Of a stretch of 64,000 nucleotides of DNA, positions 8,801 to 54,608 are shown piece by piece. A program made the translations under genes and the position numbers. The notes beneath the pieces are model-generated. The model was not told the DNA's origin and did not search any database. It saw only the letters and a program-made list of their open reading frames with translations. The first letter of the stretch is position 1. Each line of letters starts with the position of its first letter. The stretch is from Tribonema minus (Eukaryota; Sar; Xanthophyceae; Tribonematales; Tribonemataceae), in assembly GCA_017506865.1 (NCBI GenBank), contig JAFCMP010000115.1, forward strand, positions 124,001 through 188,000, read 5' to 3'.

Positions 8801-11800
8801 GCGGTAGCAGCAGCGATCCTGGCAGCGGAGGCAGCGGAGGCGGCGGGGGCGGCAGTGCTGAGACTCTCGCGCAGGCGTGCGCTGCGGCATTGGAGCGCGT
8901 GTGCGCCGCGTGCGCGCCGCTGCTGCTGCCCGCTGCCGCCGCGCTGTCAGACGCGTACCTGCAGTGGACGGCGGCGCCGCCGCCAGAGATGGCGGCAGAC
9001 GCGGCGGCGGCCGTGCGGCGCTGCCTGCTGCGCGCGTCGTGTTCCGTATTGGCTGCTTGTGGCGGCGGCGACATCGGCGGCAGCGGCAGCAGCGGCAGTG
9101 GCGGCGGCAGCAGGGGCAGCGATGCCTGTTTTGTCGTTTGCAGTCTAGTCCAACATCTGGTGGAGCGCTCGGTTTGCGCGGCAGCGCGGATTGCGGCGCA
9201 CGGCGGAGAGGCGGCAGCAGCAGCGGCGGAGGCCATTGATGTGGCGGCTGTGCTTTCCGATCTGGCGCAGCTGTTACGCCTGGTGAGCAGTGCTGCAGTT
9301 GCATATAAGGTAGCTTCGCGCAGGTGCAACGCAGCGACTGCAGCTCTCACAGGACTGTCGTACTGCTGATGTTGTCGCAGCGTGTGATGCAAGTGCATTG
9401 TGGGCACTGGGCTTGCTTTTGTAGCAGGGCACGCCGCACACCAGCCAATTCTTCACAGAGATATTTGGCATGATGCGCTGCTACATATGGTGAGCGGTGC
9501 TGCATCTGCATTGGGAGTCGGCTCCACACAGGCGCAGCGTGATGCTAACGTAGCAGCATTCATCCGTCGTCAAGTTACAACCAAGCGACTTTGCACTGTT
9601 TCAACAGTAATTGTGCTGGTTCAAAAGGGGATATGCTGGTCAAAGCATGCCTCAAAAGTGCTTCATGTGTAGGATGATACACCATGTTCAAACTCATGCG
9701 GTTAGGGTTGCCAAAATCGTACCTTTTTTTACAGATATACTCCGTAAATCGTACCGTAATTTGACCGTAAACTCCTGCCTATTGAGGTTTTGGAGAACTT
9801 CGATACCATTTTTGCGTCTGGCACAGTAAGCCCGAATATAAATCTCAGGGCACCCGAAGCTGTGGTCAAGATCAGCATGGTTTACGCTACAATACCGTTG
9901 ACCGTATTTTTTCAATAATACCGTTTTGGCAACCCTGAGTCATGCCATATGCAGTACGGTTCCTTCAGCCATCTGAGGTCAAGAATGCATGCACAAGAGC
10001 TATGACTAGGGGTTGATGGCCAGACTTCCCATGTCCAACCGAATTTGCTCGCTTGCGACGCTTTCGCACTAAACGCTCATACTGAGGTGCACCACTGACA
10101 TCGAAAACAGTTGATGATGGCCAACCATTGACGCTGCCGCCACCACCCTACTGCCACGCAATGCTCGACGATCCCAACCTGCAGGGGTCATAGCCCTCTC
10201 GGCCGCTGGGATTGTGTTGAAATTGCATGTGCCTCAAGTACACAAGTCACTTAATTCAAGATTGCAGTACAGGCGCACCAGCTGCAGCAGCAGCGGGGGC
10301 ACGCCCAGTGCTCCTCAGGCATGGTGCCCGCTTCGTGATACAACCACCTGCCCCCATGTGTGCCTTCTTTTTCCTGCGTATTGCAGCCGCCGACAGTGCT
10401 TCTCAATGGCGGCGATGCTTATACATACATCAAAGAAGCAGTGGCGCCGGCGGCGGAGGCGCGCCGCTGCTGCAGCAGCGCTCAAGCGCAGCAGCTGCTG
10501 CTGCTCGCCCAGTGCGAAGTGATGCGCGCTGCTGCTGCCGCCGCCGCTGCCGCTGCACAGCAGTCAGGGGTGAGTCAGTATCGCTTTTACTCAAACATTA
10601 TTGGTGTCAGTGCAATATTGGAAGAATCAAATGTCAATAGCGGCAGCAGCTCTCAGCCACCATTGATACTCGATTATGGTATATTTCAGATGTATGCTGA
10701 CTGCATTTTGTTGCCATTGAAGAAATGGCAACGCTGCTGCTGCACCTGAGTGGCTGACACTGGCGCACGCAGAACCCCTATACGCTGCAATCAACATGCG
10801 GTGATATGATGGCATTTTATCCCATGGAGAGTAATTGGCAAATGTAGCACAACCTACTATTAGCAAGCCGATGCACCTGCAATGTACACACACCTTCAAT
10901 GCGACCATTCGGAAGCTTAGCAAACCGCGCAGCCATCACAGCATAAAATCACGACCCCTGCGCCAGTTCCTGACAACAGAGTGGTGTGTACGAAGCATGC
11001 CTTCACGCAAGGCACTATGACTTGTTCATGTCGTCTTGCAGAACCTGTGCAACCTCCGCACTGGAGTGTCGGCGGTGCCGCAAACGCCCGTGAGCGTGCA
11101 GATGCCACACAATCGTGCATATACTCACACCCACTGCTGTGGTGAAGCTCCGCCCTCTTCATGCTGCAGCCGCAAGTCTCACACGCAGCACGCAGCATTC
11201 ACACGCGGAGCGTCCCAGCGCGATCCAGGCTCATCATCCAGCCTCTGCTGGCCTCCTTCCCCCTCAACCCCCCCACAAAACGAGTGCTATGCAGCAGACT
11301 GCACGAGCTCACGTGCGATGCCCCCCCCCACACATGTGCTAATCGCCAGATTGCACAAGCTCACGTGCGATCCCCACGTGTGCTATGCGCCAGATTGCAC
11401 AAGTTCACATGCGATCCCCCCCCACTCCCCCCCCCACCCAAAAAAACAATTAAATTTTGGGACCCCGCAGAGCGGCGGCGGCGCAACGGCATCGGCAGTC
11501 ACGCTGCTGAGCGCTGCGGCAGACGCGTGCGTGGCCGCGCACGCGCAGCGCGCGCACGAATGCGCGCTGCGCTCTCTGGCGGCGGCGGCGCCGGACCTGC
11601 GCACGGTCCTTGGCTGCGTCCCTGCAGACCAGCGGCAGTGGCTGCACGCCAAGGCCGTGGGGTGAGTCGAGCGCTGTCTGGCGGAGCGTACTTTAAGTTT
11701 GTACTTGAAATTGAAGTGTCTATGCAGCTTTGCTCTGTGTACCTGTACTGTCAAGGCCGTGGGGTAAGTTGTGAAGTTACTTGGTGGAGCGTACGTTTGG

Positions 11801-14800
11801 AAGTTGAAGTATCTACGTAGCAGTGCTCTCTGTGCCTATCTTGTTTCGTAGTTTGGGGCGGCGACAGCTGCGCCAAGGGCGTGGGTGAGTCGAGCGGTAG
11901 GTTGGCGGAGCGTACTTCAAGTATGCCTCAAACGTGACAAAGTTTGCACACAGAAAGTATTTTGACTACTGTGGATATGGTGGCAAAGTTTGGCTCGTGG
12001 CCGATTGCCGCAGCAGCAGCGACCATGATGATTGGTGAAAGGCAATTAATTTTAACAGCTGACCACACTTTGTCACCCATGTAGAGCTCTACGATCTTTT
12101 TATCTGTTTTCATGTGTCTACATAGCAGCGCTCTGTGTACCTATACTATTGCGTAGGTTGGTGCGGCCATGGCTGCAGGCGCTCTGACATGCTCATTCTG
12201 CGTGCACGGCGAGCGCCATGAGCTGTGTTGGCGGCAGCTGTGCCTCGGATCAGCAGCTAGAGTGGCAGTGAGAGGTGCCAGTGTTGAGGCGTGCGCACTG
12301 TCGTTGGTGGACTAATGACATTGCCGTCACCTGTGCATCTGGATATGTGCTACGAATTCGTCCATTGTGAAGGCACTGATACGCGCGCAACACATCCTTT
12401 CACTGTTCACAACCATACTCCCCGCTTCCCCTCATTTCCGGAGCTGTTCACTGCACACTGTGAAGCAGATCATGCTCATCATCGCGCCGCGCTCCTTTCG
12501 TGTGCCGTCCTCTCGCGCGCGCCTCCGCGCAGCTGGGTGCGCGCGTGCCGCATCCACGCGTGCCTGCTGAGCACTGCTGTGCAGCAGCAGCACCAGCAGC
12601 GACAGCAGCACCAGCACCAGCACCAGCAGCAGCAACAACAGCAGCAGCAGCACCAGCACCAGCACCAGCACCAGCTGCAGCAGCAGCAGCAGTGGCAGCA
12701 GCAGCGCTTAGACTGGGCCCTCGTCGACGCGGCCTTCAGCCTGCGCCTGGCGTGGGTGGACGCCCTGCCTTCCTTGTGCGCATCGTTGATTGGCGACTGG
12801 CTCGAGGAGACTTTGGCACTGCTGTGGGGTATGGGGGGCGCGGAGGCGAGGGCGGGGGCCCGAACGGGCCTGCTGTTTCTGCGCCACAGCTTCGAGCAGG
12901 CAAGCGGTCGCTCGTGTGCTCGTTCGTGATTTTTTTGAGGGGGGGGGGGGGGGAGGGGGCATGGGGCGTGATGTTGGGTGTCAGAGCGTCAGTCGTGGGG
13001 AAGGCCTTGGTCAAAGGCTGTCACGTCATATTTAGGTACGTCAAATAGACAACAGTGTGCCTGATACCCAGGCTGACTTTTGCATTATAGGTACTCAAGA
13101 AGTAGGTAAAAGTGTGCCTGATGTACCCAGGCTGACTGTTGACCTGCACGCATCGTTATGAAATGATTTAACGGCATCTGCGGGCTGTTGGAATATGGTG
13201 CATTCCTGTTAGTTCAGGAAGGGCTCTGGAACTTGCGCAGGTTGTTTAAAGCAAGTTGCTCTAATAAGGTTCTTTGCAACTTCTGGGCAGATTCTGTGAA
13301 GTTATGAGAAAAGGAATGCCTTGTGGCCATCTGTTTGAGTAAGTACTTGGTCAATGTCACACCCCGTGAGGTGCGAGCATCCTTCCCCTTGCTTGTAGAC
13401 ATCCCAGTGTGATGATTGCGCTCCACGCAGTGATGCATTCATGAGCTGCTCGCTTAGAGTGGTACACACGCACTACATCACAACAAGTGTAAGTACTGTG
13501 CATGTTGCCTTGAGACGCAAATATGTTTATCAGCAGTGCGAAATACCCAAGCGAGGTGTGCTGATCACATTAGGTGCCTCCGCCTCTGGCATGCTGATGA
13601 TATCAGGCAGTAGCTGCCCCGGTTTTGTGCCTGCACTGCTTTTAGCTGCCCTCTTGCTCATACTCATTTGAGTGAGATCGGCCTCTGGAGTCCATTCTCT
13701 GCATGCTTCTTTGCTGAGCTCAGGTTCATGCCAACCCATGTATATCTGCATACAAGCGATGCCCCATATCCTATCAGCGCACCAGGTTTTTCCTCGCAAA
13801 ATTTCCTTTTGCAGTTTGCACTTACAGTATGATAAAAAGGCAACCAATCTGCATCGCATCGTGCTTTGCCGCATCTCCCCTCGCACCCAGGTCGGCGACG
13901 CCGCCTTCGCGTCCGCGGTGGCGGCCGCCGCAACCTGCGCTACAGCCAACCCACATTTCCAATTGGACAGCGCGCAAGACGGCTGCTTAGGCGCCAGGGT
14001 GCTTGCGCTGGTGCTCTTTGGCCTGCGGGGCGGCTACGCCAGCACCATGCTGGACGCTCTCGTGGCCTGTGCGCTGGGAGTATACGTGAGATTCGGTTCA
14101 GCCGCAGCCGGAAGGTGAGACACGCTGCTTCATCGGCACTGGCGATATGTGTTGACTACATACTGTCGATATGGTGGCAGTGTTTGACTCGTCGCCAATT
14201 GCCGCAGCAGCGGCGACCACGGTCATTGGTGGAAGGTATTCAACCTGACGGCAAACCACACTTTTTCACCTAGAGCGCTATGATCTTTTGATTAGGTTTC
14301 ATGTTTGCTGTCAATGTCAGGGTTGGGTGGGATTCATGCCGAGGGCTGATGGTACTGTTTCTGTACGCATGGTGTGCGCTGCACTGCTACAACGATGCGC
14401 TTCTGCATTTGCCATCACGATTCAGGTGACAACAACCATTGGCCGATGATGCGTTGCGCCTGCACTGAAGGGTTGAACAAATCCCGGTGGATAGGGCGGG
14501 GCGATGCATCGATGAACTGATCTCATCGTGGGCTCGTGCGTTCAACTATGAATTGGCTCAACATGGGAGCTATTCTTGCACCAAGCAGCCTTCAAGACCC
14601 GTTCTGCACAGCCAGTTTGCGCCGTGAATCCAGGCGTGAATGCTAAACCGCGTTCTGTACAGCGCCCTAGGGTTCCACGTGCGTGGCCAACGCGACGTCA
14701 CTCGCAGCGCTAGCGACCAGCGCAGATACGGCCCTTCAGCACACCGCTCATGGCGCAGGCAGCAGCGGCTTGGTATCTAGTAGTCACGACGCAGCACAGC

Positions 14801-16921: not shown

Positions 16922-17037
16922 AGTACTTTTTATTAATTCTCGCTCAGGGCGCGAAAAAGCCCAGATGATGGTCTAACTTGATGCTGCTGTACGGAATCTG
17001 CATGTCGTGTGACTTCTGAAAGTGTCTCAACGACAAC
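16922..17037 (-). repeat. Repeat family A, copy 1 (minus)
   Basis: Near-full copy in reverse orientation: GTACTTTTTATTAATT, the GGGCGCGAAAAAGCCC hairpin core, then the ACATG-AGATTCCGTACAGC block and the CACTTTCAGA block. In forward sense it reads CACTTTCAGA ... GGGCTTTTTCGCGCCC ... AATTAATAAAAAGTAC. Confidence 0.85.
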
Positions 17038-25046: not shown

Positions 25047-25144
25047 ACTGTCACACGACATGTAGATTCCGTACAGCAAGCTTCAAAGTTAGATGCCATT
25101 CATCTGGGCTTTTTCGCGCCCTGAGCGAGAATTAATAAAAAGTA
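25047..25144 (+). repeat. Repeat family A, copy 2
   Basis: Contains CGACATGTAGATTCCGTACA, ATCTGGGCTTTTTCGCGCCC, TGAGCGAG and the AATTAATAAAAAGTAC end. The open frame crossing it ends in the peptide SSGLFRALSEN, which is also seen at the 30117 copy; that shared end reflects the repeat and not a protein family. Confidence 0.85.
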
Positions 25145-31559: not shown

Positions 31560-32760
31560 CCTAGCTTTTCTGCCTTTGAAGCTTATATCCAGGAGCGCCT
31601 GCGAGAGCACGTGCCTACCTCAAGGAATGCATCAAATCGTGGCGGCGGATGCTGTCAGTAGCACCAGCTGATCAGGAGGGCGCTGCAGAACGGCATGGAC
31701 GCCACTTGTGCACTTGCAGGGGCGATATGAGCGTTGCTACCGCTCCATGGCACACACATGACAGCACTGCAAATATGGCACACGGAGATAGATCGCTGCC
31801 GAGATGATACATGTGCAGCTCGTGCAGTGGCTGCGACAGCATTGCTGCACTGCTGACAGGGGCGCCTAACTGTGCCGAGTCGCTGCCAAAGGCGGTCCGA
31901 TTGAGGTGCTGCAGCGGCTGCTCTGGGTCGGCAGAGCGTGGGACGCAACCATACTCAGAGTCGCCGTGGCAGGCGGACAGCGTTCGGTGTTGCAGTGGGC
32001 GCGTACAAACATGCGTCTCTTGGATGCACGCACGTGTTCAAGCGTGGCAGGCAGCGGGCACCTTGGGGGTACTGCAGTGGGCGCACGCTAACAGGTTTGC
32101 TGAACGTGAGGAGGTGCTTGCCTACGGTGGGCGGTGGGCACCTGGCAGTGCTGCGTTGGGCATAAGGCAATGGCTGCCCCTGAGAATCGAACACGTGCAG
32201 AGACGCTGCGGGCAGCAGGCGCCTTGCATTGCTGCAGTGGGCGCGCAACAACAGGTGCCCCTGGGATGGATGATTATGCAATTATGCAGCTATGCTGCAG
32301 GCGGATGGCACCTTCAGGTCCTGCAGTGGCCGCACGCAAATGGGTTTGTGATTAACATACGAGCTGTCGTTGCGAAACAGTCGGGATGCTCCAGTCGGCT
32401 CATGCAAATGGGTGCCCCTGGGACCGGTGCTCCATGGATGTGCACATATGCTGCAGAGGACAGGAAACTCGATATACTGCAGTGGGCGCGTGCCAACGGG
32501 TGCCCATGGGATAAGACATCGTGCACCTCTGCTGCAGCAAAGGGCATCTTCAGGTGCCGCAATGGGCGCGCAAAAATATCTGTCGCTAGGGTGAGGAGAC
32601 ATGCGATTGTGGTGCCCAGTTCAGACTAGTCACCTGGAGATGCTGCGATGGGCCCGTGCCAATGAGTGTCGGTGGACAGCGATATCATATCATGCCAAGG
32701 AAGCAGACGAGTTGCACATGGTTGAATGGGCATGTAGCAACGGGTGTCCTGAGCCCACAT
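31560..32760 (+). pseudogene. Second ankyrin-like gene relic, heavily decayed
   Basis: The lead-in (MHQIVAADAVSSTS, 31628 on) matches the N-terminal part of the minus-strand ankyrin gene. The array follows in several frames: GGQRSVLQWARTNMRLLDAR (about 31975), a GHLGGTAVGAR unit, LQVLQWPHANGFVINIRAVV (about 32315) and LDILQWARANGCPWDKTSC (about 32470). Unit spacing stays near 80 bp while the frame changes repeatedly. Loss is older than in the 25.8-27.4 kb copy. Confidence 0.65.
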
Positions 32761-38554: not shown

Positions 38555-39370
38555 TTCGCGCCTGTCCCCTCTCCCCGTGCTGGGTCACTGATGGGTCCGC
38601 CGTGTATCCTTGCATACTTAGGCCGTTATTTTCCTCTGCGATGGTCTCACCTTGACGTGGTGCAGGGGCTTCAGCACTGAGTATTGCCAACTCTTGTGCT
38701 GACCAAGATAGACCTGAGTATGACCGCAGGTTATTGGTCATCAGTAATAAACTGTGAGGACTGTGCATCCATTTGAAGGGTAGCGATTTGGAGGCAGGTA
38801 CTGGTCGGTGATGAGGACTGATGCTCACGGTCACACTGCCTAGTGCTGGCACAAACATGGCGCTGCATCTTGCCAACCACAGCAGGACAAGCAAGGTGCG
38901 TACATGCTGGATTAGTCGTACACCTATGCTACATGACAGCTGCGTCATTTTCACCAATGCAGAAGGCGTCTTCATGTCCTACGGTACACAGGCGAAAGCG
39001 CAGACGATCTAACGCCTTGACGTATGTGTTGACGTCTTTGGTGCCGGTGAGTTTGAAGCAAGCAGGTTTCCTAGCGCAGGTATACGTCGGTCTGCTATCC
39101 TCTGCGCACGTTGCCTGTCCTGTGCGTTTGGCTGATGGTGTCTCGTTGTTGGTGCCGGCACCACACAGCGATGGCCCTGCATCTTGGTCATGTCTGTCGA
39201 CCATTTCCTGCCCTCAAATCGCCACGCTTTTAAGAATGCACGGTCCACACAGTTTTCTTTACCCATGACACATAATCAGCGGTTGCTCAATATAGTCTTT
39301 TGGTTCGTAAATAGAATTGTACTACACCCCGACCCTTGTCTCTTCTCCGTTGCAAGTGCCCGTATCTGAT
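38555..39370. repeat. Direct duplication of about 0.8 kb, copy 1
   Basis: Corresponds to 39385-40165 with an offset near 826 bp. Shared landmarks in order: CTCTCCCCGTGCTG, GGTCTCACCTTG, GTGCAGGGGCTTCAGCAC, GGTTATTGGTCATC, GAGGACTGTGCATCC, GTGCTGGCAC, a GACAGCTGC block, and GTTGCAAGTGCC at the end. Divergence looks like 25-30%. Confidence 0.8.
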
Positions 39371-39384
39371 GCCATGGACGCTGT

Positions 39385-40165
39385 CTGCATGTCCCCTCCC
39401 TCTCCCCGTGCTGACCCACTGATGTGTGTCTGTCACGTATCCCTGCCCACTGGGTAGGCCTTCTTTTCCCCTGCAAAGGTCTCACCTTGTCGCGGTGCAG
39501 GGGCTTCAGCACCGAGCCTTGCCAACTCGGTGCTGACCAAGCCAGACCTGACGATGACCGCCGGTTATTGGTCATCGCGAATGACTGCGAGGACTGTGCA
39601 TCCGCTGGAAGCGTCGCGATTCGGGGGTGGCAGGTAACTGGCAGTGACTGCTGAGGGTCACGGCCACTGCTGTGTAGTGCTGGCACGTACAGCAAGCCAC
39701 TCTCGACCAACCACACCAGGATGAGCATCTTGACCGGTGGGTCAATGTACACGTGCGCTGTGACAGCTGCATAGGACTCGCCAACGCAGGAGGCTTCAAC
39801 ACGGTTTACGGCACACAGGTGATAGCTCACGTGGTGCAGTCCAGGTTGAGCTCTGCCGCCTTGATGTGTGTATTGTTGAAGCCTTTTGTGTTGGTGGGTC
39901 CTTTGCAGCCGGCATAGCGCACATGTACGCTGATCCACTGCGCGCCGATGCTCATCCTGTGTAGTACGCTGAGTGTGGGTTGTGGTTGGTGTCAGCATTA
40001 CGCAGTGATGGCCCTGTGTCTTGGCTGTCTCCGCCATTCACCTGGCGCCTCCAAATCGCGTTTTTCACCGATGACGGATGACCAGCGGTTACTCAGTTTT
40101 CTGTTGGTTTCACAATGTACACTTGTTGTCTTTTGTTGTTGTTGCAAGTGCCTGTGTTCAATGTA
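39385..40165. repeat. Direct duplication of about 0.8 kb, copy 2
   Basis: Partner of 38555-39370. Both copies hold a long minus-strand open frame (177 and 253 codons) in which segments such as MTNNLRSYSGLSWSA and MTNNRRSSSGLAWSA align. Either a coding remnant or a non-coding repeat is possible; indels between copies are not multiples of three throughout, which argues against current coding. Confidence 0.75.
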
Positions 40166-42961: not shown

Positions 42962-43352
42962 GTGTGGGGGACAGTCGCTTGCGGGTGCTTTGTTGGGGGT
43001 GATGTGGGGGGCCGGGGTGTGGCGTGCAAGCTTTGCATGCTACATCCAAGAGTGAAAACAAGGCGACACACCTACAACATGGCATTTCCACAGCCACAAG
43101 TGGAATATAATAAAAGTACACACACAAAGAGTACACTTGCGAAGCGAAATTAATAAAAGTACACTCACGTGGGGGACAATCGCTTGCGGGTGCTTTGTTG
43201 GGGGTGATGTGGGGGGCGGGGTGTGGCGTGCAAGCTTTGCATGCTACATCCAAGAGTGAGAACAAGGCGACACACCTGCAACATGGCATTTCCACAGCCA
43301 CAAGTGGAATATAATAAGAGTACACCCTGAGCGAGAATTAATAAAAAGTACA
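42962..43352 (+). repeat. Two tandem units of about 205 bp upstream of SHMT, ending in family A-like tails
   Basis: Unit 1 begins about 42962 (GGGGGACAGTCGCTTGCGGG) and unit 2 at about 43171 (GGGGGACAATCGCTTGCGGG). Both contain GTGGCGTGCAAGCTTTGCAT, AACAAGGCGACACACC and CCACAAGTGGAATATAATAA, and then run into AATAAAAGTACAC-type ends. Unit 2 ends in a family A tail (CCTGAGCGAGAATTAATAAA then AAGTAC, 43327-43351), copy 9 of that family. CACAAGTGG/CCAC-type palindromes and TATAATAA could act as promoter elements for the gene 230 bp downstream, but this is inference. Confidence 0.8.
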
Positions 43353-43582: not shown

Positions 43583-46500
43583 ATGTCCGCCATCCCGAAG
43601 ACGCTGCCCGGCAACATGAGCTTGGAGGAGCACGATCCAGTCATGGCAGACCTCATCGAGAAGGAGAAGACGCGGCAATGGTCCTGCCTCGAGCTGATCG
43701 CGTCAGAGAACTTCACGAGCAGAGCAGTCATGGAGTGCCTGGGCAGCGCGCTCACGAACAAGGTGTGTATTGAGTGCGTGGTGCCTAAGTAGGCGGTGCC
43801 TTTGAGCTTCAACTGTGGTCATCTCAACCATCTCGCAGGCTGTGCATAGCGACGCAGCGGTGTCGGAGGGTCGCGCAATCATCAGTATTAGTGCTGCTGT
43901 CTTCCACCAACTGCCCACGTGGTGTCGTGCATGCTGCGCGACGGCAGCGGCCAATGTGACTCAGATTCGTGCCGACTGAAGTTGGTATTTTTTAACTCAT
44001 ATGCGGGATGATGGCAGTATCACTCTGTGCCAACGAGCAATCGCAGCAATGCGCGAAGACGTCTTGCTTCATTAGATTTTACAGCTTTGATTTGTTCTCA
44101 TCAGCATGGTCTCAAATTTACTCTTTGGTGCGGGACAGAGTGAACATGGACTTCCTGATTGCTTGTGTTGCACAATTGTCAATGATCCTAGTTTGTACTA
44201 TGGCATAGCTATGTGAAATACGTCAAGGTACAATCACAGAGCTGGCAGGTGCGCGAGATCAGTCGTTAAATGCCGACATGACGCCCCAAGCACGTTGCTA
44301 TCCCATGCGCAAAGCTGTTGTTGCAGTCAGAAATGCACAATTAGTGTGCAAGTCATTTGGGTGGTTGTATTCTGGTACACCAGCAGCCTTTCACCGCAAG
44401 CATCTGTACCTGCGCGTTTTCTCCAATGTATTTGGCAGTGTTGATGCAAATTGGAAAGCACCCGGGGCAAGGTAAATCAAGCACTCGCATTTAAGGTGCT
44501 GGAAATACAGGCAATGAATTGCGACCGGCTTCTGTGTGAAGGTGTTGATTCGTCGGCAGTGGCATTTGCAGCTTAAGAGCCAAAAGCGCAGCTGCAAAGC
44601 TCAATTGCATGCACGGCCTTCGAAGTGCCCTCATGTAGGGTTTGATTTGAGTGGGGGGCAGCTGCGAAGTGCCTTCATCTAGGGTTTGATCAGAGTGCGC
44701 ACCTCTCATGACTACCGTGTCGTAATGCGCAAATGTTTACGTTGCAACTGAACAATAATGATTCTGCCCGGCTTAATGGGGTGCTGAAGGGTTGCGCTCG
44801 TTGTTGTACAGTTCAGGCTTTGGATGCAACCAAGTGGTTCAATACTCTCCGCTGCTGACCAATTGAATTGGCGCAATAATCTATGCGCAACCATGCGCAG
44901 CCGTCAAATAAGCAGATGCTCGTGTGCACCTGCTCCGCTGCTTGTCCCCTGCCCCCAAAGCAGCGTGCAAAACACGCGTGCTTGAGGCCAGGAGCCTGAA
45001 GCCAGAGGCGCAGAACATTGATTGCGCACTCTTCATTCTCAAGGCTCTATATCAATCGGGTGTTGAAGAAAGCATTGGAGGCCATGAACCTAAAGTTGAA
45101 GTCACAGAACGTAAATGTTTTTCACCTGGCTTTGGGTGTGACGAGCAATGCCCCCCCCCCCCCCCCCCTCCTCCCTTGCAGTATGCGGAGGGCCTGCCGC
45201 ACGCGCGCTACTACGGCGGCAATGAGATTGTGGACCAGATTGAGGACCTGTGCCGCAACCGCGCGCTGGAGGCGTACAGGCTGGACCCCAAGGAGTGGGG
45301 CGTCAATGTGCAGGTATGCATGTATGCATTGTTTAGTTGGGGTATGTATTGTGCCTCGTTACGCTAGGTACATGCGCTGGAGGCGTACAGGCTGGACCTA
45401 AGGAGTGGGGCGTCAATGTGCAGGTATGCATGTAATTCGTACTTTTGAAAAACAGAAGTAAACCTGCAAGTACAGCATACGCTACATTTGTGCTGGGGGC
45501 GCAGAGGCTGGGTTCCAATAAATGCTGCATCAACAGTGCAGGTGTCGTGTCAGCTCCGTCTACCTGGCAGAGCGGCGCACTGCTTCACAGTGCAACATGT
45601 TGTCACCAGCGCGATATTAGGAGTGGTGTTTGTGCTTGAGGGCCGGACCTGCGAATGCGCGCAGAAGCCCTTTTTACTCCTCAAAGAAGGCCTCGGGGAA
45701 GGGGCGTCAACTGCAAGCATGGAGGGTTGCGCTTTGCAAAGTACGCCATCGAAGTACTCACATGTCATTCTTCGTGGTCATCTGAGATGGCCTTCGATAA
45801 TCCAGGCTAGGAAACTGTGCCGCGATCGCATGTCAGCAGGCATGCAGAGATTCTGCCACCTGAGTAGCGATGCAGTCCGTGGGAGTTGAAGTTGAAGAGT
45901 AAACTGTTTCGTTTTTTCTTACAGTTGACCTGATTGGGGCAAAGGCGCCGCAAATGGTATGATCATCACACCATTTCACACCAACAACAGAGTGCTCTGC
46001 TCTCGCAGGTCTGAGAAATTGCAGTGCAGACAATGTGTGCTTACTGCTTTGAGCACAAGTTTGGTGAGCACGAAACGTATGGGCACAGCCACAGTCCCAA
46101 TCGCGGCCTGCTGTGATGTCCTGAGAGGATGGCAGGCATACACTCTAGTGTGACCAAGGAAGCATGCCGTCAGACAATACTTATGCACGGGGGGTTTGGG
46201 GGGAAACTGCGTTCATCCAGCTTGCATTTGCGGCATGGCTCAAGTGGTCAGTACCGGGCTCTCAAGGCATGGCACGGAATTTGCACAGCGTCGTCCCCCT
46301 GGTGGCAGCCTCGTGCAGCAGTGCGAGGTTGTGAATCAGCTGAGGAGCGATGCGATGCATTTGTCTGCATGCTGCGACGGCGCAGACCGATGCGCTGCGT
46401 GGCAAGTCCAGCAGTGGGACTCGGTATCCCGTTGGGCATATAATGCGGCTCTCCACTGCCCTCTGACGCCGCCGTTGGCGCTGCTGCAGCTGCACGCGCT

Positions 46501-49500
46501 CACTCACCGAGCGCTGCAATGTTACATGAGAACAAATCAAAAGACCGTAGAGCTCTAGGTGATGAAGAGTGGTTAACCGCGAGCGCCTTCCACCAGTCGC
46601 CGCTGCTGCAGTCATCCGCCATGAGTCAAACAGTTACATGCTGTCCCATGGTGCTGAGCGCTGCTGCTCTGACTGCGCTCGCACCGCGCATGCAGCCCTT
46701 CTCGCCGGGTCCCCTGCCACCTTGTCGTGCTCATTTCCTGAGCGTTGAGATGTTGCTGTGTAGCGTTGAGCATTTATTTGCTGCCCGCGCTCGCGTCCAT
46801 GTTGCAGCCCTACTTTGTGGCCAACTTCGCTCGCTGTGCTCATCTGTTGAAGGGCTGCCACAATACCACACAGCACTGAGCCCTGCTTCTCTGTGCACGC
46901 TTTCACTGTGTCTGCAGCCCCATTCCGGGCCCTCCGCCAACTGCGTTCATTTGCTGAGCGTTGAGATGCTGCCGCGCAGCGCTCAGCCCCTCTTTCTTTG
47001 CCCGCGCTTGCACCCGTGTTTGCAGCCCTACTCGGGGTCCCCCGCCAACTTTGCGGTGTACACGGGTCTGCTGCGCCCCCACGACCGCATCATGGGACTC
47101 GACCTGCCCTCCGGCGGCCACTTGACGCACGGGTGAGTCACTGCGCCTGTTGAAGTTGTTGTGTGCTTGAAAGTTTGATACACCTGAAGTTGTGATGCAC
47201 TTGAAGTTGGGATGCACGTGATGGAGAGTGAGGGCTGGACCTGCCCTCCGTTTGACACATGGGTGAGTCGCAGCCCGTTGAAGTTGTGGTGCACTTGAAG
47301 AAGAACGGTCTCCGGGGGCGGGGGTGGGGTCAACTGGCTGGCGCCCGTTGCGCGTCAGCTCATGGCGGACCTGCATCGCGCTACATACATACATGCAATG
47401 AAGGGGTGAGGTGTGTGTTGTCGTTCAGTCGACAAAGGGTACCATGTCACAGTTGACGCACGAGCGTGCTTCTCATTACCTACAAGCGTGGAATGATATC
47501 TACAGTAGCTATATAAATAAATAGAATGAGTCCACAACGACAGTGTTCTCTACAGCCATGGTCACCGTCAGGCAGCCCTGCGTCATCTACATTCTCACGT
47601 TGCTTGCCTTCTGGTGAGGATTAGGTTCTGATGTTCTGATTTCTGGTGTTATTTGCCTTCTCTGCATTTCTGATCTCTCAACTGATTGCTCCCACTGCCG
47701 CTGTGTGATGTTTCTGCCAACAGGTTCTACACATACTCCAAGGCGGAGAACACGCGCAAGGCCGTCTCCGCCACCTCCGTCTACTTTGAGTCCCTCCCGT
47801 ACCGGTAAGGCAATGATCACCCGTCTCGCCTTGTTGTGACATCATCTTCTGCAAGCCTGCTTTGCCAGTTTCTTGAAGCATGATACTGAGCAAAACAACA
47901 CAATATATATAGCTTTGACAGCTGAGACCTGGCGGCGCGTGCAAGCACCCCCATCATCTTGCAATGGTGCGGTCATCCTCGGTCAATGTCTCAGTGCTCT
48001 GCGACTGCGCAACTGCTGCTGCGTGGCGCCATCCTGCGCCACTCTAGATCGGGAAGAAATGACTTTGGAGACCTTGGACGCGGCCCTACCAACAACAGCC
48101 TTTTTTCATGCACAGCACACTGCAACAGTTCACTCCAACCACTCGCACCTGACCCCTGTCCCTCCCCCACATTTTTAACGCACATGCTCTTTTGCCGCTG
48201 CAGCGTCAACCCGGAGACGGGCCTGATTGACTTTGACGAGCTCATACATTCCGTGTCTGTCACAGGTCTCTACTGCAAGTGCAGTGAGTGCACCATGCTG
48301 CTGCACCCATAATCGCATACAGCCAACCGCATCTGACCCCCGCCCCCCCCCTCCCGATTCGTACGTACACTCTGCGCTGCCGCCGCAGCGTCAACCCCGA
48401 GACGGGCCTGATTGACTTTGACGAGCTGCGCAAGCTGGCTGCGCTCTTCAAGCCCGCCATGATTGTGTGCGGCGGATCCGCGTACCCCCGTGACTGGTGA
48501 GTTGAAGCGTGACTGTACAGTGTAACTGTAGAGTGTAATTGTAGCACGAAGGCAGACTCTTGCACAGCATCGCCCCGTTATGTGCGGCGGCTCTCAGCAT
48601 ACCCCCGCAACTGGTGAGTTGAAGTAGTAACTGTACAGTGTAACTGATGCACGAGGGCAGACCCTTGCTCATCATCGCCCCACCTTCGATTTGCCTTTCG
48701 GATGCTGCGAAGGGTGCCTCCAGATGCAGCTCAGTTCGCGAAACAATGCGGTCTTCGTGCGAGTCGTCAAGCACTGCGCCCTCGTTTCATTGAGCCCACC
48801 ACTTTGCACTGTTGATATGCACGACATTGCATGCACGCTGCAACATGCTTTCACAGGTGCCGCGCCATCGTCGACAAGAACGGCGCGCTGCTGCTGTGCG
48901 ACTGCTTCAAGTTCACATCTTCGAGTAAACTCAGCAGCTTTTCTGCCGCATGGCCCAGCATTCCGCAGCGCGCTGCACATCGAAGCTTGCAGAAACGCGC
49001 ATTCCCCCTCAAATCGCATGTCTGTTGGCATCTTGTGCGCAGGGACTACACGCAGTTCCGCGCCATTGTGGACGAGAATGGCGCGCTGCTGCTGTGCGAC
49101 TACTTCAAGTTGACATACTTGACTAACCTCAGCAGCAATTGTGCGGCATCACCCAGCGCTCTGCAGCGCGCTGCCCATCGAAGCGCCCGTGGCTGAAGCG
49201 CATGTTTCACACCACTTTTGTGCAGGGACTACACGCAGTTCCGTGTCATCGCGGAAAGGAACGGCGCGCTGCTGCTGTGCATGTTTGCTTTACCACGCTT
49301 ACCAGCATCATCGAGCAATCAGCATTACTTTGCTACCGAAGCATGTGTGCGTGACTGAGTCGTTATCTCTCGTGTCGTGCCCCGCGGCGGCGCAGGGACT
49401 ACACGCAGTTCCGGGCGATTGCGGACGAGAACGGCGCACTGCTGCTGTGCGACATGGCGCACATCAGCGGCCTCGTGCTCACGCAGGAGGCCAACAACCC

Positions 49501-52500
49501 ATTTGACTACTGCGACGTCGTCACCACCACGTGCCACAAGTCCATGAGGGGGCCGCGCGCGGGCATGATCTTCTTCAAGAAGGTGAGCGTCGTTGTTGCA
49601 GTTGTTGAAGTTGAACACAGTTTGAGGTGTTGTTGGAGCGTCATCACCACGTGCCACAAGTCCATGAGGGGGCCGCGCGCGGGCATGATCTTCTTCAAGA
49701 AGGTGAGCGTTGTTGTTGCAGTTGCAGTGTTTGTTGAAGTTGAAGTTGGTGTAGTTGTTGTTGATGTTGAGCGTGTCGTCACCCACGTGCCACAAGTCCA
49801 TGAGGGGGCCTTGCGCGGGCATGATCTTCGTAAAGATGGTGAGTGTCGCTGTTGCAGTTGCAGTGTTGTTGCAGTTGAACTTGAAGTTGGTGTCGTTGCA
49901 GCGTCGTCACCTGAAGTTCGTGCGCAGCGCACTTGCGAGGAGCGGAGCGGCGCGTTTGTCACCTCTTTGAGAAGGTGAATGTGCGCGAGTGTGCGCTCGC
50001 ATTTGATGAGGACTGCCGCAGGCTGCTCACGCCTTTTGATGGTGAATGTATTCGCGGCTGCTGTGCACATGACGCAGCTACTTGGACGCCTTTGTTGTGG
50101 TCATGGGTTGGGAGCTGCTGATGTTGCTTCTTCAAAGCTTCAACATATTGTTGCGCCTGATGCCGCCCTCTACTGCACGACTCGTGCAGCTTTGAGCCGC
50201 GCATCAACAGCGCCTCCTTGTGAACCAGTCACAGCACTCTCTGCCCACCGTACCTTTGCGAAGTCTCAATCCCGTTGCTGCACTTTTTCTCACAACGCAG
50301 GACTCGCGCAACTATGAGCCGCGCATCAACAGCGCCGTCTCTTGACATGATGCAACACCTGCCTGATGTTGTTGTACCGAAGCTTTCAATCCTTTTGCTG
50401 CGCCTTCTCTTGATTTACGCCGCAGGACTCGCGCAACTTTGAGCCGCGCATCAACAACGCCGTCTTCCCGGCCCTCCAGGGCGGCCCCCACGAGCACCAG
50501 ATTGCGGGCATCGCCACGCAGCTCAAGGAGTGCATGTCGCCCGTCTTCAAGACCTACATCCAGCAGGTACAGCAGAAGCTCTCATTTCTGCTAGAGGCTG
50601 CGCTGTTGGCACTGCTTGAAATTGCAGTCCGCGCCGGATCTTCATCAACGTGCGCTCTCTCTGCTGGCACCCAGGCTGTTGTCGTCTGCCCCCCGCCAGA
50701 GCGTTGAGCGGACCTGTGCATACGTAGGGTTAGGGTTAGGGTTACGGTTAGCCCTGTTGCTGCCCTAACACACAGACACACAAGATGCGCATCACACACA
50801 CAGACACACACACACATGCTGCTGCAGCCGGAACGCTGAAACAGCACGGCATTCACCCACATCTCGCCCGTGCGCGCTCGCCTGCAGTGCTGTCCACTGA
50901 GCACTGCCGGTGAGCACACTCCCGTCGCTGAGCGGCCCTTCTCCCATTGCTGCGCTCTCACGCCGAATCCGCAACTGAGACACGTGCCTGCTGCTCAGTG
51001 CTGTGGAGCGCTGCTGCCAAGAAGCTGTGCTGTTTTCCCACACCGCCGCACGACGCCTGTGCCTGCTGCACACTGCCGTGGAGCGCCGGTGTCAAGAAGC
51101 TGTGCCGCGCTCCCGTGCCGCTGCGCGCCTCCCCCTTGTATGAGTGCCGGTGCGCTCTCACATTCCGTCCGTGACTGCGCGCCCGCGCTCCGCAGGTGAA
51201 GACCAACGCCGCCGCCTGCGCGGCGCGCCTGGTGGAGCACGGCTACACGCTGTGCACCGGCGGCACGGAGAACCACCTGCTGCTGTGGGACCTGCGGCCC
51301 CAGGTGAGGAGCGCTGCTGCAGATCACGACTCATTTACCTGTTATTCATGACTCTCTGCACAGACGCACACACGCACAGTTGACGCGCTTGGGCGCATAC
51401 GTTGCACGTGGGCTCCGCACGTTAGGTATCTGTTGCAGTACGGTAGTTGCTTGAAGTACCCTGGAGTGGCGCGCGCCAGCTTTGTCAGGTCCTCTGTGCA
51501 TTGTGCACTGCAGAGGAGCGCTGCTGCAGAGCACGCGTTCAAGCCACACTTACTTGTTTCACCACCCAACCACCCTCTGCGAACTTCAAGTACAGTACAT
51601 TGTTGTTGTGGAGTCAGCTGCCAAGCGCTGTTGCAGAGAGGTGCTGTCGGGCGCACCGCATCCGCCAGGCTCGTGCGTGCGCCCCCACCCTGCCAGCTCG
51701 CAGACGCAGCAGTGCTCAGCGGCCGCACTCTGCAGCAGTGCTCTGCAGCTGTGCTGTGCCCCGCGTTGCGCATGTGCAGTCTATGCTGGTCTACCGCAAT
51801 GACCAAATTGTCAATCGACGGCCTGTGCTTCATGCTCCGTGTCACGGCGCCGCTGTGCCGGTCGCGTCATGCACGCTCACTCACGTTGCCGTCGCTGCTG
51901 TGCACCCCCATGTCGCTCTTCCCCCTCTCGCAGGGCCTCACCGGCAGCAAGATGGAGAAGATCTGCGACGCGGTGCACATCACGCTCAACAAGAACGCCG
52001 TGCAGGGCGACCGCAGCGCCGTCTCTCCGGGTATGTATGGGCATGTAGCCGTGCTATGATGGCATGTACAGGAGATGCTGTAATTGGGATTGCGTAGGTC
52101 TTTGTTGCTGATAACCGTGCCACTACGCGTGAAGGCCAAAGTGGCAGCCCGGAACACATTGGGGAAAGTGCAGCGGCCAGCCTGCAGTGCGGTTTGATAA
52201 GCACGCAAGCTGAGACTGCACTGGTGCACTCAGCCACGCCTTCGCTGTCGGACTTCGCTTTCAGTGCGGGCAGCATCCTCACGCGAACAACCGCTGCATT
52301 GCTCATTGGTCAGCATGACAGCTCTGCGCCCGACGCTGCATGCGGCTTGTCACAAGCGTTGGCGATGAGTGCTGCTGCCCTGCGTTTTGTTCAGGCGGCG
52401 GTGGTCTGCTGCTTCGATGCATGCAGCATGCTCGCCAAGAGCTGCCGCGCGCCAGGCTTACGCACACGTTACTTGCGCTTCGCTACAATCACTGATGAGC

Positions 52501-54608
52501 GCTGCTGCTCTCTGTGTCGTCAGGCGGCGTCAGTCTGCCGCTTCAATGCACGCAGCACGCTTACCAAAAGCAGCTGCGCAATAGGCTTGGCTGAGCACGG
52601 CGGCCCCGCGCACACACACGTTACCCGCCTGCAATACAAATTCTGATGAGCGTTGCTGCCTTGTGTGTTGTCAGGCGGCGTGCGCATCGGCGCCCCCGCG
52701 CTCACCACGCGCGGCATGGGCGCGGCCGACTTCCAGGCGATTGCCGACTTCCTGCACCGCGCCGCGCAGATTGCGCTCAAGATACAGGTGCGCGGAACAG
52801 TCCGCAAGTTCTTGTCACCCACGTATGCGCAACGTGCCACATACTGTCACCCAAGTGTGCGCTACCTGCGTGCAGATACAGGTGCGCGGCACAGCCACGT
52901 GAGTTGTTGTCCCAGAAGCATGCGCAGAGTGCAAACTTACGCCATCGTACGGCTGTAGCAGCTAGCAAATGCGCGTGCGCCTGAAGGCTGTCCCTCTTGC
53001 GGCGCTTCCCCGCGCTGTGGGCCGTCTGAGCGTACTGGCTGTGTGTGAGCTCGGCAGCAGCTCCAGCGTGTTTGATGCCTCAAAGGAAAGTCGGCCATTC
53101 ATTAACAGGTGCCGCGTGCGCTGCGCAGCCCGAACTTCAACCGCAAAGACGCGAGGATCATCGCACGCGGCGGCGACGCTGTGCGCGCGCTGTTTTGAAA
53201 AGTTCATTTTCGTTCGCTGAGCACGAGGGCGCGCATCCGAGCGGCGGACCCTCTCGCGCTTCTGTTGCGTGCACGCGGATGTGCATGGCGCCATGGTGTA
53301 CGCGTGGCTAACCCTAACCCTAACCTAACTGAACCCTAACCCTAAATCTAGCTCTGCAGAAGCATCTAGGAAGAGGGATTCGGGTCAGCGCGCGCAAGGA
53401 GCTTCACCTGCCGCACTAGCTGCGCCCCGCTGTGTTAGAGCGGCGATGACGTGGGTTAACGTTAGTGTTCTGAGCCGATGCCATCGGCCGGCTTTTCGGC
53501 TTTCCGGACATGGATCAGCCGGCTTTTTCGGCCTAATCGGCTGTCATAGGCTTTTCGGCTATTTGGCCGGCTTTCGCCACAACCGGCTTCTGTCAGGGTC
53601 TCTTTTTTTGCTGATGTGATTGATGACACGTCGTCGGCGAGCACTCTTGTCTCAATACTGTTGGAACAGTACTGTAACCGGCAAACCAAGCAGACTGCTC
53701 AGCATCCTCAAGCACATTCCGGTGTTTGGCGAAAGTTGTTTTAAAAAAATTGTTGATGCCTAACCGTGCTGCTCAACCACGCACCAACAACAACAGATCG
53801 ACTGCCCACCACCGCAGAGAAGAGAATGTATACTCTCTGCTGCGCCATATCCGAAACCATTCCACTCGTCATGCTTTGCTTCTCAAGCTCAAGCGTGCTG
53901 GCACGACAACCCAACGTCAAGTCAAGCTATGGATCCGTTGGTGCCGCAACAGCTAGCTTCGAAGTAGCTACCATCTGGCATTGCTTGCAGGCACACTGAG
54001 GCGTGGTAAGGCTGAGAAAGGCCTCACAACTACTTGATTAGGCCTAATAGGCACATTTAAGAAAAAGCAGAAAGCCGACGTGAGCGATCGGCCGGCTTTC
54101 TGTTCTCGCCGAAGCCGATCGGCTTAGCCGACTTCGGCTCAGAAAACTAGTCGACGCCTGTCGTGTGCTGTGCCCGTGCCTCGTCGTGTTTTCTGAACCT
54201 TAAGTTGATAATTCTCCACACTACATGGCCCCCCTGCGGCGGCTTCTCAATCACGGTTCCATGCGTCGCACGTCGGCTCATGCAGGAGACCAGCGGTAAG
54301 CAGCTCAAGCAGTTCGTGGAGGCACTCGCCAACAACGCCGACATCAAGGCGCTCGGCGACGAAGTGACGGCGTTCGCACAGCGCTTCCCCATGCCGGTGA
54401 GCGTCCTCTTGAACGCGAGCGCCTGTGCCTTGGTGAATTATGCAGGGCTTGAGCTTGTGAGCACTTGTGAGGAAACGCTGTACACGCATGAGCCTTGCGT
54501 CTGACTTGTTTCGCTGTTCTCAGCAAACTCGGTGCGCTGTTATCATTGCATCTCGCGCCGCAGGGATTCAACGTGTCGGAGCTCAAGTATAAGACCCTGC
54601 AGGCATAG
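43583..54608 (+). CDS. SHMT: Serine hydroxymethyltransferase, complete 12-exon gene
   Basis: PLP enzyme converting serine and tetrahydrofolate to glycine and 5,10-methylene-THF; 469 aa, a normal length for the cytosolic-type enzyme, with no targeting extension. Exons: 43583-43762, 45182-45313, 47026-47132, 47724-47804, 48389-48496, 49396-49582, 50426-50566, 51196-51303, 51934-52030, 52675-52787, 54286-54396, 54564-54608. All joins keep phase and all use GT-AG. Landmarks: [11 protein letters not shown] near the N-terminus, HARYYGGNE (67-75), HLTHG (about 136-140), [11 protein letters not shown] with Asp222 and His225, [19 protein letters not shown] with the Schiff-base Lys251 (TTTCHK instead of the usual TTTTHK), [12 protein letters not shown], and [11 protein letters not shown] with Arg393 for the substrate carboxylate. 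The ORF ends [10 protein letters not shown]. Introns make up 87% of the locus and are filled with junction copies, telomere-type arrays and a TIR element. Confidence 0.95.
44590..44700. repeat. Tandem duplication of about 45 bp in SHMT intron 1
   Basis: CGAAGTGCCCTCATGTAGGG then TTTGAT (about 44618), repeated as CGAAGTGCCTTCATCTAGGG then TTTGAT (about 44666). Confidence 0.8.
45374..45432 (+). repeat. Echo of SHMT exon 2 end and donor
   Basis: Copies 45263-45325 (GCGCTGGAGGCGTACAGGCT ... GTCAATGTGCAGGTATGCAT) 110 bp downstream. The copy lost two C residues (GACCTAAG for GACCCCAAG), so it would shift the frame. The donor is intact. Confidence 0.9.
46737..47025 (+). repeat. Echoes of the SHMT exon 3 acceptor
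   Basis: The block CTGAGCGTTGAGATG ... TTGCAGCCCTAC occurs from 46737 (acceptor copy at 46801-46830, CCCTACTTTGTGGCCAACTT) and from 46954 (leading to the real acceptor at 47025). Another acceptor copy is at 46911-46945 (CTGCAGCCCCATTCCGGGCC). The copies are not open in the SHMT frame beyond about ten codons. Confidence 0.85.
47226..47290 (+). repeat. Echo of SHMT exon 3 end and donor
   Basis: GGACCTGCCCTCCGTTTGAC then ACATGGGTGAGTC, then a CGTTGAAGTTGTGGTGCACTT-type intron start, matching the real junction at 47100-47170. Nine bases of the exon end are missing. Confidence 0.85.
48135..48388 (+). repeat. Echo of SHMT exon 5 acceptor
   Basis: CTGCAGCGTCAACCCGGAGA then CGGGCCTGATTGACTTTGAC (48200-48239) repeats, 186 bp upstream, the start of the real exon 5 (48389). 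The preceding intron (CRCMTCTGACCCC, C-rich tract) is also shared. After GACGAGCTC the copy diverges. Confidence 0.9.
48579..48690 (+). repeat. Echo of SHMT exon 5 end and donor
   Basis: About 112 bp matching 48465-48578: TGTGCGGCGG, TACCCCCGYRACTGGTGAGT, TGAAG, ACTGTACAGTGTAACTG, GCAGACYCTTGC and CATCGCCCC. Tandem, unit 114 bp. Confidence 0.9.
48854..49393 (+). repeat. Three echoes of the SHMT exon 6 acceptor
   Basis: Copies with acceptor near 48855, 49042 and 49227 precede the real acceptor at 49395 (spacing about 187, 185 and 168 bp). Each carries CGCGYCATYG..., then AACGGCGCGCTGCTGCTGTG. Copies 2 and 3 also carry GGACTACACGCAGTTCCG. After about 70 bp each copy leaves the SHMT reading; between copies the CAGCGCGCTGC-CATCGAAGC intron segments are repeated as well. 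Confidence 0.92.
49636..49845 (+). repeat. Two echoes of SHMT exon 6 end and donor
   Basis: The end of exon 6 with the PLP-lysine block (ACGTGCCACAAGTCCATGAG, GGCATGATCTTC) and donor recur at 49640-49707 and 49776-49842. Copy 1 is nearly identical to the real one (49524-49590). Copy 2 has CCTTGCGCGGGC and an altered end. Intron starts (GTTGTTGCAGTTG, TTGAAGTTG) are part of the unit. Confidence 0.92.
50186..50425 (+). repeat. Two echoes of the SHMT exon 7 acceptor
   Basis: ACTCGTGCAGCTTTGAGCCG then CGCATCAACAGCGCC (about 50180) and GCAGGACTCGCGCAACTATG then AGCCGCGCATCAACAGCGCC (about 50298) precede the real exon start (50426) at about 120-bp steps. Confidence 0.9.
50724..50751 (+). repeat. 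Interstitial telomere-type array in SHMT intron 7
   Basis: TAGGGTTAGGGTTAGGGTTA then CGGTTAG; followed by a CACACAGACACACA-rich stretch to 50817. Confidence 0.9.
50993..51120. repeat. Tandem repeat in SHMT intron 7
   Basis: Two units of about 74 bp with TGTGGAGCGCTGCTGCCAAG / CGTGGAGCGCCGGTGTCAAG then AAGCTGTGC, directly upstream of exon 8. Confidence 0.75.
52366..52674 (+). repeat. Two echoes of the SHMT exon 10 acceptor
   Basis: GATGAGYGCTGCTGC followed by a TCAGGCGGCG acceptor junction occurs at about 52366 and 52494, and again as the real junction (52645-52680). In the copies the exon part is replaced after GGCGGCG by TGGTCTGCTGCTTCGATGCA / TCAGTCTGCCGCTTCAATGC. Confidence 0.88.
52869..52925 (+). 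repeat. Echo of SHMT exon 10 end and donor
   Basis: CAGATACAGGTGCGCGGCAC repeats AAGATACAGGTGCGCGGAAC of the real exon 10 end (52781-52800); the GTCACCCAMGTRTGCGC intron block is duplicated between them. Confidence 0.85.
53308..53346 (-). repeat. Interstitial telomere-type array in SHMT intron 10
   Basis: CTAACCCTAACCCTAACC, then TAACTGAACCCTAACCCTAA, the C-rich sense on the plus strand, opposite to the other arrays in this window. Confidence 0.9.
53468..54144. mobile_element. Non-autonomous TIR element in SHMT intron 10
   Basis: Inverted ends TTCTGAGCCGA (53468-53478) and TCGGCTCAGAA (54134-54144) bound about 677 bp. Subterminal regions on both sides are packed with GCCGGCTTTTCGGCT / AGCCGATCGGC-type palindromic words. 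The interior (53740-54060) is non-coding by eye. No convincing target duplication is found (flanks TTAGTG and CTAGTC are only similar). It is probably a MITE or fold-back-like DNA transposon derivative; SHMT exons on both sides stay intact. Confidence 0.7.

Follow-up and report, generated by a model that had tools for sequence, protein, structure and literature searches.

Serial tandem echoes of splice junctions in the introns of an SHMT gene of Tribonema minus

Why should the introns of a gene carry, next to its exons, serial copies of the ends of these same exons? This question is raised by an SHMT gene of the xanthophyte stramenopile Tribonema minus, which lies in a 64-kb stretch of DNA (hereafter the window) from which all the counts given below come. 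An initial annotation of this stretch had reported that at least nine junctions of the gene are echoed in the adjacent intron and had proposed two readings, namely decoy, regulatory or poison exons, or the record of a recurrent local duplication process.

The SHMT gene and its echoed junctions

The gene was delimited by tblastn with the T. minus SHMT2 protein (P0001), which set its ends, followed by a check of the reading frame and of the GT-AG borders, and its model is as follows.

43583..54608, + strand: SHMT gene, 12 exons
43583-43762, 45182-45313, 47026-47132, 47724-47804, 48389-48496, 49396-49582, + strand: SHMT exons 1-6
50426-50566, 51196-51303, 51934-52030, 52675-52787, 54286-54396, 54564-54608, + strand: SHMT exons 7-12

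The model comprises 470 codons including the stop, without internal stops, and its introns are all GT-AG; with such an uninterrupted frame the gene does not look like a pseudogene. Exons measure 45-187 bp and ten of the 11 introns 584-1712 bp, the final one being of about 167 bp. A last exon at 53109-53198 was rejected, since tblastn with P0001 and the frame check give 54286-54396 and 54564-54608. Pfam PF00464 was matched (E = 1.8e-147) by a preliminary splice that lacked exon 1 and ended in an erroneous exon. The gene adds a second copy to the annotated T. minus SHMT2 (P0001), which is located on a 630-kb contig and is 96% identical over 93% of a query that likewise lacked exon 1 and had a wrong final exon. 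Both T. minus copies carry derived residues when compared by eye with three other fetched relatives, for instance RQAS and RGFD in P0001, and DYTQ, LLLC and AYRL in the window copy. No near-identical annotated product of this locus appeared among the matches listed (at least 120, of about 213-677 aa), the final exon of the query being wrong. Just upstream of the SHMT start codon, a tandem pair of about 158 bp, 97% identical with an offset of 205 bp, occupies 42964-43325. A motif around GAGCGAGAATTAATAAAAAGTAC is found at 25129, 30200, 41251, 41622 and 43335 (+ strand), preceded at three of these places by TCGCGCCCTGA, and its short core recurs at 16939 and 40985 (- strand); it is perhaps a mobile-element end or a processing signal.

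Each junction, represented by up to 90 bp of exon and 40 bp of intron, was compared with the remainder of its own intron and with 200 shuffles. Echoes containing exon sequence were found at ten of the 22 junctions, 18 in total, each scoring above the highest of the 200 shuffles, and the ten arrays are listed here.

45263..45543, + strand: E2 donor array, parent 45263-45324, echoes 45374-45434 and 45492-45543
46667..47051, + strand: E3 acceptor array, echo exon starts 46696, 46808 and 46918, parent 47026
47095..47299, + strand: E3 donor array, parent 47095-47171, echo 47232-47299
48136..48427, + strand: E5 acceptor array, echo exon start 48204, parent 48389
48463..48681, + strand: E5 donor array, parent donor 48496, echo donor 48613
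48857..49453, + strand: E6 acceptor array, echoes D1 48857, D2 49043 and D3 49226, parent 49396
49517..49911, + strand: E6 donor array, parent donor 49582, echo donors 49702 and 49838
50175..50465, + strand: E7 acceptor array, echoes 50179 (AG lost) and 50301, parent 50426
52364..52681, + strand: E10 acceptor array, echoes 52395 and 52524, parent 52675
52780..52940, + strand: E10 donor array, parent donor 52787, echo donor 52881

These are exactly the junctions named beforehand (donors of exons 2, 3, 5, 6 and 10; acceptors of exons 3, 5, 6, 7 and 10), and the predicted one to three copies per series were also recovered, with three echoes at the E3 and E6 acceptors, two at the E2 and E6 donors and at the E7 and E10 acceptors, and one at the E3, E5 and E10 donors and at the E5 acceptor. 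On the contrary, no echo was detected by the same test, with 200 shuffles each, at the remaining 12 junctions, so that the wording "nearly every junction" was too strong. Copies hold 6-66 bp of exon instead of the announced 20-90 bp, and the announced spacing of 110-220 bp needs adjusting: neighbouring copies lie 94-198 bp apart, the offsets of 216-222 bp at the E3 acceptor corresponding to two units. The 18 do not include two hits devoid of exon sequence, one located at the E8 donor and the other being the third hit of the E6 donor. The borders of exons 1, 11 and 12 were 1-3 bases off in the junction, substitution, placement and introns-only tests, which leaves the echoes unaffected. The tandem echoes of the SHMT splice junctions are thus real and well above chance.

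Tandem units and their concentration at junctions

Within the arrays, copies follow each other head to tail in one orientation, and their units hold both exon and intron sequence. Of 13 comparisons between neighbouring intron parts, 11 reveal homology at p ≤ 0.014, ten of them at p = 0.002. The intron part aligns over just 11 bp at the E2 donor (p = 0.014) and barely exceeds shuffles at the E5 acceptor, and that of the outer pair at the E7 acceptor is unalignable (p = 0.87). At the E6 acceptor, adjacent echo units reach a z of 18.4 and the intron parts of D3 and of the parent a p of 0.042. The echoes are true tandem duplications with units of 94-198 bp, rather than exon scraps.

They are also homegrown. 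Searched within the window, 11 units gave 32 matches, a single one of which lay beyond 2.5 kb (27 bp, 89%), a distribution that does not resemble the dispersal of introners. The origin of the copies from this gene or from its paralog could be told for the E6 acceptor and the first E2 donor echoes. The four fetched relatives have Met at a position where all three E6 acceptor echoes have Leu, and three of these four have Ala where D2 and D3 have Thr; as the Leu and Thr residues are derived in the window copy, the echoes arose from it after its split from SHMT2 and are young. At the E6 acceptor, as well as for the first E2 donor echo, such lineage-specific residues led to the rejection of SHMT2 as a source. 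The recurrent local duplication that had been proposed is accordingly supported by head-to-tail copies, by the inclusion of intron parts and by the window-copy residues.

Microhomology at the outer edge is significant at two of the ten arrays: an exact 10-bp repeat of the exon breakpoint, CGTCGTCACC, lies at 49902 in the E6 donor array, whose outer edge is predicted at 49905 (p = 0.003), and an 8-bp repeat, TGACTTTG, at 48060, close to the predicted outer edge of the E5 acceptor array (p = 0.028). The other eight are not significant, including a possible 7-bp repeat at 47368 for the E3 donor (p = 0.08), and the Fisher-combined p is 0.03. Ageing of the copies with distance from the exon fits the E2 and E6 donors; the E6 and E3 acceptors are out of order, and a regular outward ageing was rejected as a rule for all arrays.

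The explanation that we favour with good confidence is that local tandem duplications recurred in this gene and were tolerated thanks to exon definition. Their units, of roughly 44-200 bp, would have struck the gene repeatedly, possibly by slippage or by microhomology-mediated duplication, of which the two arrays mentioned above bear signs. When located inside an exon or covering a whole exon, a unit would alter the protein and be removed by selection; no exon-only or whole-exon tandem row was found in SHMT by the window-wide scan described below. A unit that crosses exactly one splice site would be tolerated, as the parent exon is left intact and forms, in every case, the innermost acceptor-donor pair. 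Exon definition would keep choosing this parent pair, as the short exons and mostly long introns suggest; introns longer than their flanking exons were taken, in the excerpt of a Drosophila study, as possibly favouring exon definition (PMC5762160). The outer copy would turn into intron and decay neutrally, so that each event would lengthen the intron and leave behind a defunct exon end whose splice site is still young.

The distribution of the duplications was approached with a window-wide tandem scan, in which 90-bp pieces were compared with the next 300 bp, simple repeats being masked, at a score of at least 50. It retrieved 28 rows, as compared to 0 in each of three shuffles. Thirteen rows, which make 12 series, fall in the 11.0-kb SHMT gene and 15 in the other 53 kb, i.e., 1.09 series per kb vs. 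0.28 rows per kb (p = 0.0009). A coarser scan, counting windows with a score of at least 42, was positive for 15 of 32 windows at SHMT junctions, 36 of 140 in its introns (mostly the echoes themselves) and three of seven in its exons, vs. 13 of 163 in a second gene and 50 of 690 in the rest. Some rows outside SHMT are protein repeats, e.g., of the ankyrin type. Ankyrin-type repeats with a Pfam match and an 81-bp period are present at 25843-26862 (- strand), and others, judged from similar translation alone, at 31808-32629 (+ strand). Two stretches of about 620 bp repeat each other directly at 38567-40024 (70% identity, offset 831 bp) and resemble diverged copies of a single element.

Inside SHMT, the duplications crowd at the junctions. 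When units of the lengths found were placed with exon-only and whole-exon placements forbidden, 2.6 of 13 series were expected to cross a junction and ten did (p = 1.3e-5). This test, in which the E8 donor hit, absent from the introns-only and window-wide scans, counts as intron-only, carries no correction for detection, and about 18 undetected intron-only series would be needed for p to exceed 0.05. The introns-only scan, designed to remove the easier recognition of conserved exon, gave 12 rows or 11 series, nine of which lie within junction arrays (that of the E3 donor was missed) vs. about 21% expected (p = 2.9e-5), echo exon fragments, which lie in introns, being part of the match at four of these nine (E2 donor, E6 acceptor, E6 donor and E7 acceptor). 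This result argues against detection bias as the sole cause of the excess. The p-values of the excess are post hoc, since the gene was chosen for its pattern. Two of the 12 SHMT series of the window-wide scan are intron-only:

44618..44697, + strand: intron-only tandem pair in intron 1, offset 44 bp
50956..51132, + strand: intron-only tandem pair in intron 7, offset 75 bp

Their density in the available intron, about 0.25 per kb, is near that of the rest of the window (15 rows in 53 kb), and the excess therefore consists of junction series. Short duplications equally common away from junctions, which would have spoken against the pattern, are not what the gene displays, with 10 of 13 and 9 of 11 series at junctions.

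A uniform process followed by selection filters does not predict such an excess, for which exon-anchored renewal, mutation directed at junctions and chance concentration in one gene may all be considered. Its likeliest reason would be renewal anchored on the constrained exon copy, which would keep supplying homology for new events, whereas intron-only pairs would drift apart. As a generalization that we offer only tentatively, the junctions of some genes could be hot spots of tandem duplication, or duplications could persist there through re-seeding by the constrained exon, with introns growing outward and keeping series of fossil exon ends.

A second gene of the window offers a comparison. 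The T. minus protein JKP88DRAFT_310588 (929 aa) matches nine blocks at 5.4-15.6 kb, six of them at 99.6-100%; for the other three, tblastn extended into the intron and the agreement was followed by eye as far as the exon end. These matches identify the window as T. minus DNA. Echoes were found at two of its 16 annotated junctions, several borders of which are approximate:

11632..11925, + strand: strong donor echo series, donor at about 11662, echoes at about 11764 and 11886
9270-9304 and 9477-9511, + strand: weak donor echo, donor near 9282, score 35 vs. a shuffle maximum of 28

Three extra candidate junctions of this gene have no echoes, and a third hit of its donor X7, to a CAG-rich repeat, was dropped (score 29 vs. 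28). Its other arrays, at 11331, 11804/12109 and 13027, lie away from known junctions. The duplication process extends beyond SHMT, and the concentration at junctions is seen in SHMT only. The annotated exon 11042-11662 of the second gene may read through an intron end, as it contains a tandem repeat of 44 bp and a CAG that resembles an acceptor site, with its end at 11470, and an open stretch between two blocks at 12531-12898, absent from the annotated protein, appears by eye to be a possible extra exon. For a candidate control gene at 59-61 kb, no homolog was found.

Duplication might instead be directed at splice junctions, for example through transcription, nucleosome position on exons or repair near junctions. 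The excess beyond detection bias, with nine of the 11 series found in introns lying within junction arrays, would fit such targeting, as would the background-like density of intron-only series and the shortness of the exon parts. However, the pattern is strong in a single gene selected after the fact, as opposed to one strong and one weak case at the 16 junctions of the second gene, and 12 SHMT junctions escaped it, which makes targeting rather unlikely. Slightly less probable still is the insertion of copies of nearby DNA at breaks by synthesis-dependent repair, rather than slippage. The first E2 donor echo has such an appearance, being 98% identical over 61 bp (11 of them intronic), then abruptly unrelated, with a spacer of 49 bp, and repair insertions with splice sites among the duplicated features are described in the excerpt of a primate study (PMC2671141). 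However, most SHMT arrays have their intron and exon parts duplicated together, and the primate study, as excerpted, excluded copies at most 50 bp apart as tandem (PMC2671141).

Divergence of the echoes and fate of their splice sites

Substitutions were counted in the 14 of 18 echoes having at least 25 exon bases each, four with at most 8 being left out. Compared with their parents, their exon parts accumulated 64 substitutions and 10 indels over 615 sites, the substitutions being 29 synonymous, 34 nonsynonymous and one stop. The synonymous fraction of 0.45 agrees with the 0.42 predicted when a neutral echo diverges from a constrained parent (p = 0.61) and departs from the 0.27 expected under random change in the echo alone (p = 0.0016); coding constraint on the echoes, for which an expectation of 0.9 was taken with both copies constrained, was rejected (p = 7e-19). 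The exon parts of the echoes thus diverge neutrally. Intron parts are about 0.21 diverged (summed over the ten comparisons at p = 0.002) vs. 0.10 for exon parts, somewhat above a simple neutral ratio.

The implied divergence of 0.08 per site on the echo branch means that 84% of GT/AG pairs should survive. They are intact in 16 of the 17 echoes that include a junction (p = 0.50; E6 D1 left out, the lost E7 AG counted), the splice site announced beforehand for each copy being present in these with one exception, the E7 acceptor echo 50179, which lost its AG. At the modelled echo positions, GT or AG is present in 17 of 18; E6 D1, which starts within the exon copy, has an AG at a shifted place. 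Donor consensus scores are 6-8 of 9 for echoes and 7-8 of 9 for parents, as young copies would have. Use of 14 of the 17 echo sites is predicted to produce an early stop or a shifted frame, and these sites are presumably mostly ignored. It was suggested beforehand that only one member per series is open in the correct frame, which mostly agrees with these predictions, apart from three in-frame insertions, at the E6 donor echo 49702 (+40 codons) and the E3 acceptor echoes 46918 (+36) and 46696 (+110).

These figures bear on the possibility that echoes are functional, acting as decoy splice sites or poison exons and adjusting SHMT expression by way of splicing and nonsense-mediated decay. Intact GT/AG, parent-like donor scores and the disruptive outcome predicted for most sites would all fit such a role. 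However, the retention of GT/AG equals the neutral expectation, the exon parts drift as free sequence, and none of the echoes is a complete exon with both sites, each being a partial exon with at most one splice site. Neither the coding sequence nor the GT/AG dinucleotides reveal, in this one genome, the constraint expected of a poison or regulatory exon. No Rfam family matched at E ≤ 1 in the 41-55 kb region and no tRNA was found within the window, and a riboswitch or other RNA was on these grounds rejected as an explanation. Regulatory exons, as initially suggested, consequently find no support and a function is very unlikely; judging from the sequence, the SHMT echoes are probably dead, decaying copies of splice sites. 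An assembly artefact (unmerged haplotypes, contig ends or collapsed paralogs) is hardly credible: mis-joins are conceivable because another T. minus SHMT exists, but the echoes differ from their parents by about 2-27%, several with indels and as many as four copies in register, those tested share residues with the window copy and not with SHMT2, and their intron parts diverged independently.

The lengthening of introns is rarely caught in the act, and the SHMT arrays take up 2,777 of 9,616 intron bases (29%) when each is counted from the exon edge through its outermost echo. Recurrent tandem duplication across junctions is a likely way for introns to grow while the protein remains unchanged. 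If common, it would offer a direct route to longer introns and ready splice sites for alternative splicing or new introns. Since outer sites of similar strength seem to be ignored, such arrays would then also form a natural test of exon definition, and they may mislead gene finders.

Comparison with known systems

Poison and decoy exons are whole exons that are often conserved. Similarly to these, the SHMT echoes are intronic and bear splice sites able to compete; in contrast, they are one-sided fragments that diverge neutrally.

The initial annotation knew of no described system with this pattern, which has to be qualified. A tandem duplication crossing an intron-exon boundary is published for the potato RdRp gene (PMC4974935), according to the excerpt of that paper as a single event that formed a new intron via a cryptic donor, whereas SHMT harbors ten arrays in one gene, on both donor and acceptor sides, and its protein-supported model contains no new intron. 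The models of Rogers (1989) and of Gao and Lynch (2009) for internal gene duplication and the gain of introns by tandem duplication, as cited in other papers, likewise involve short internal tandem duplications with splice sites derived from the copied sequence. However, they duplicate exonic AGGT segments or whole introns and thereby create or multiply introns, whereas in SHMT it is the existing introns that lengthen, with no change required in the modelled number of introns. Tandem duplications were also proposed, in the excerpts of two studies, as the origin of some novel Drosophila introns (PMC2891723, PMC2809761), and mechanisms of intron gain are the subject of a review (PMC3443670, as excerpted). 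The repair-mediated local duplications of primates are also short and may carry exon parts and splice sites; beside the exclusion of close copies noted above, the excerpt of that study lists four partial exon/intron donors among 824 intra-chromosomal cases, and two duplicated exons without constraint (PMC2671141). About ten serial junction echoes in one gene were not found among the titles and abstract beginnings of the matches listed, and the excerpt of the Chlamydomonas genome paper (PMC8226300) contains nothing on junction echoes. The individual events in SHMT are hence of a known kind; their number, their presence on both sides of exons and their concentration at the junctions of one gene appear to be new.
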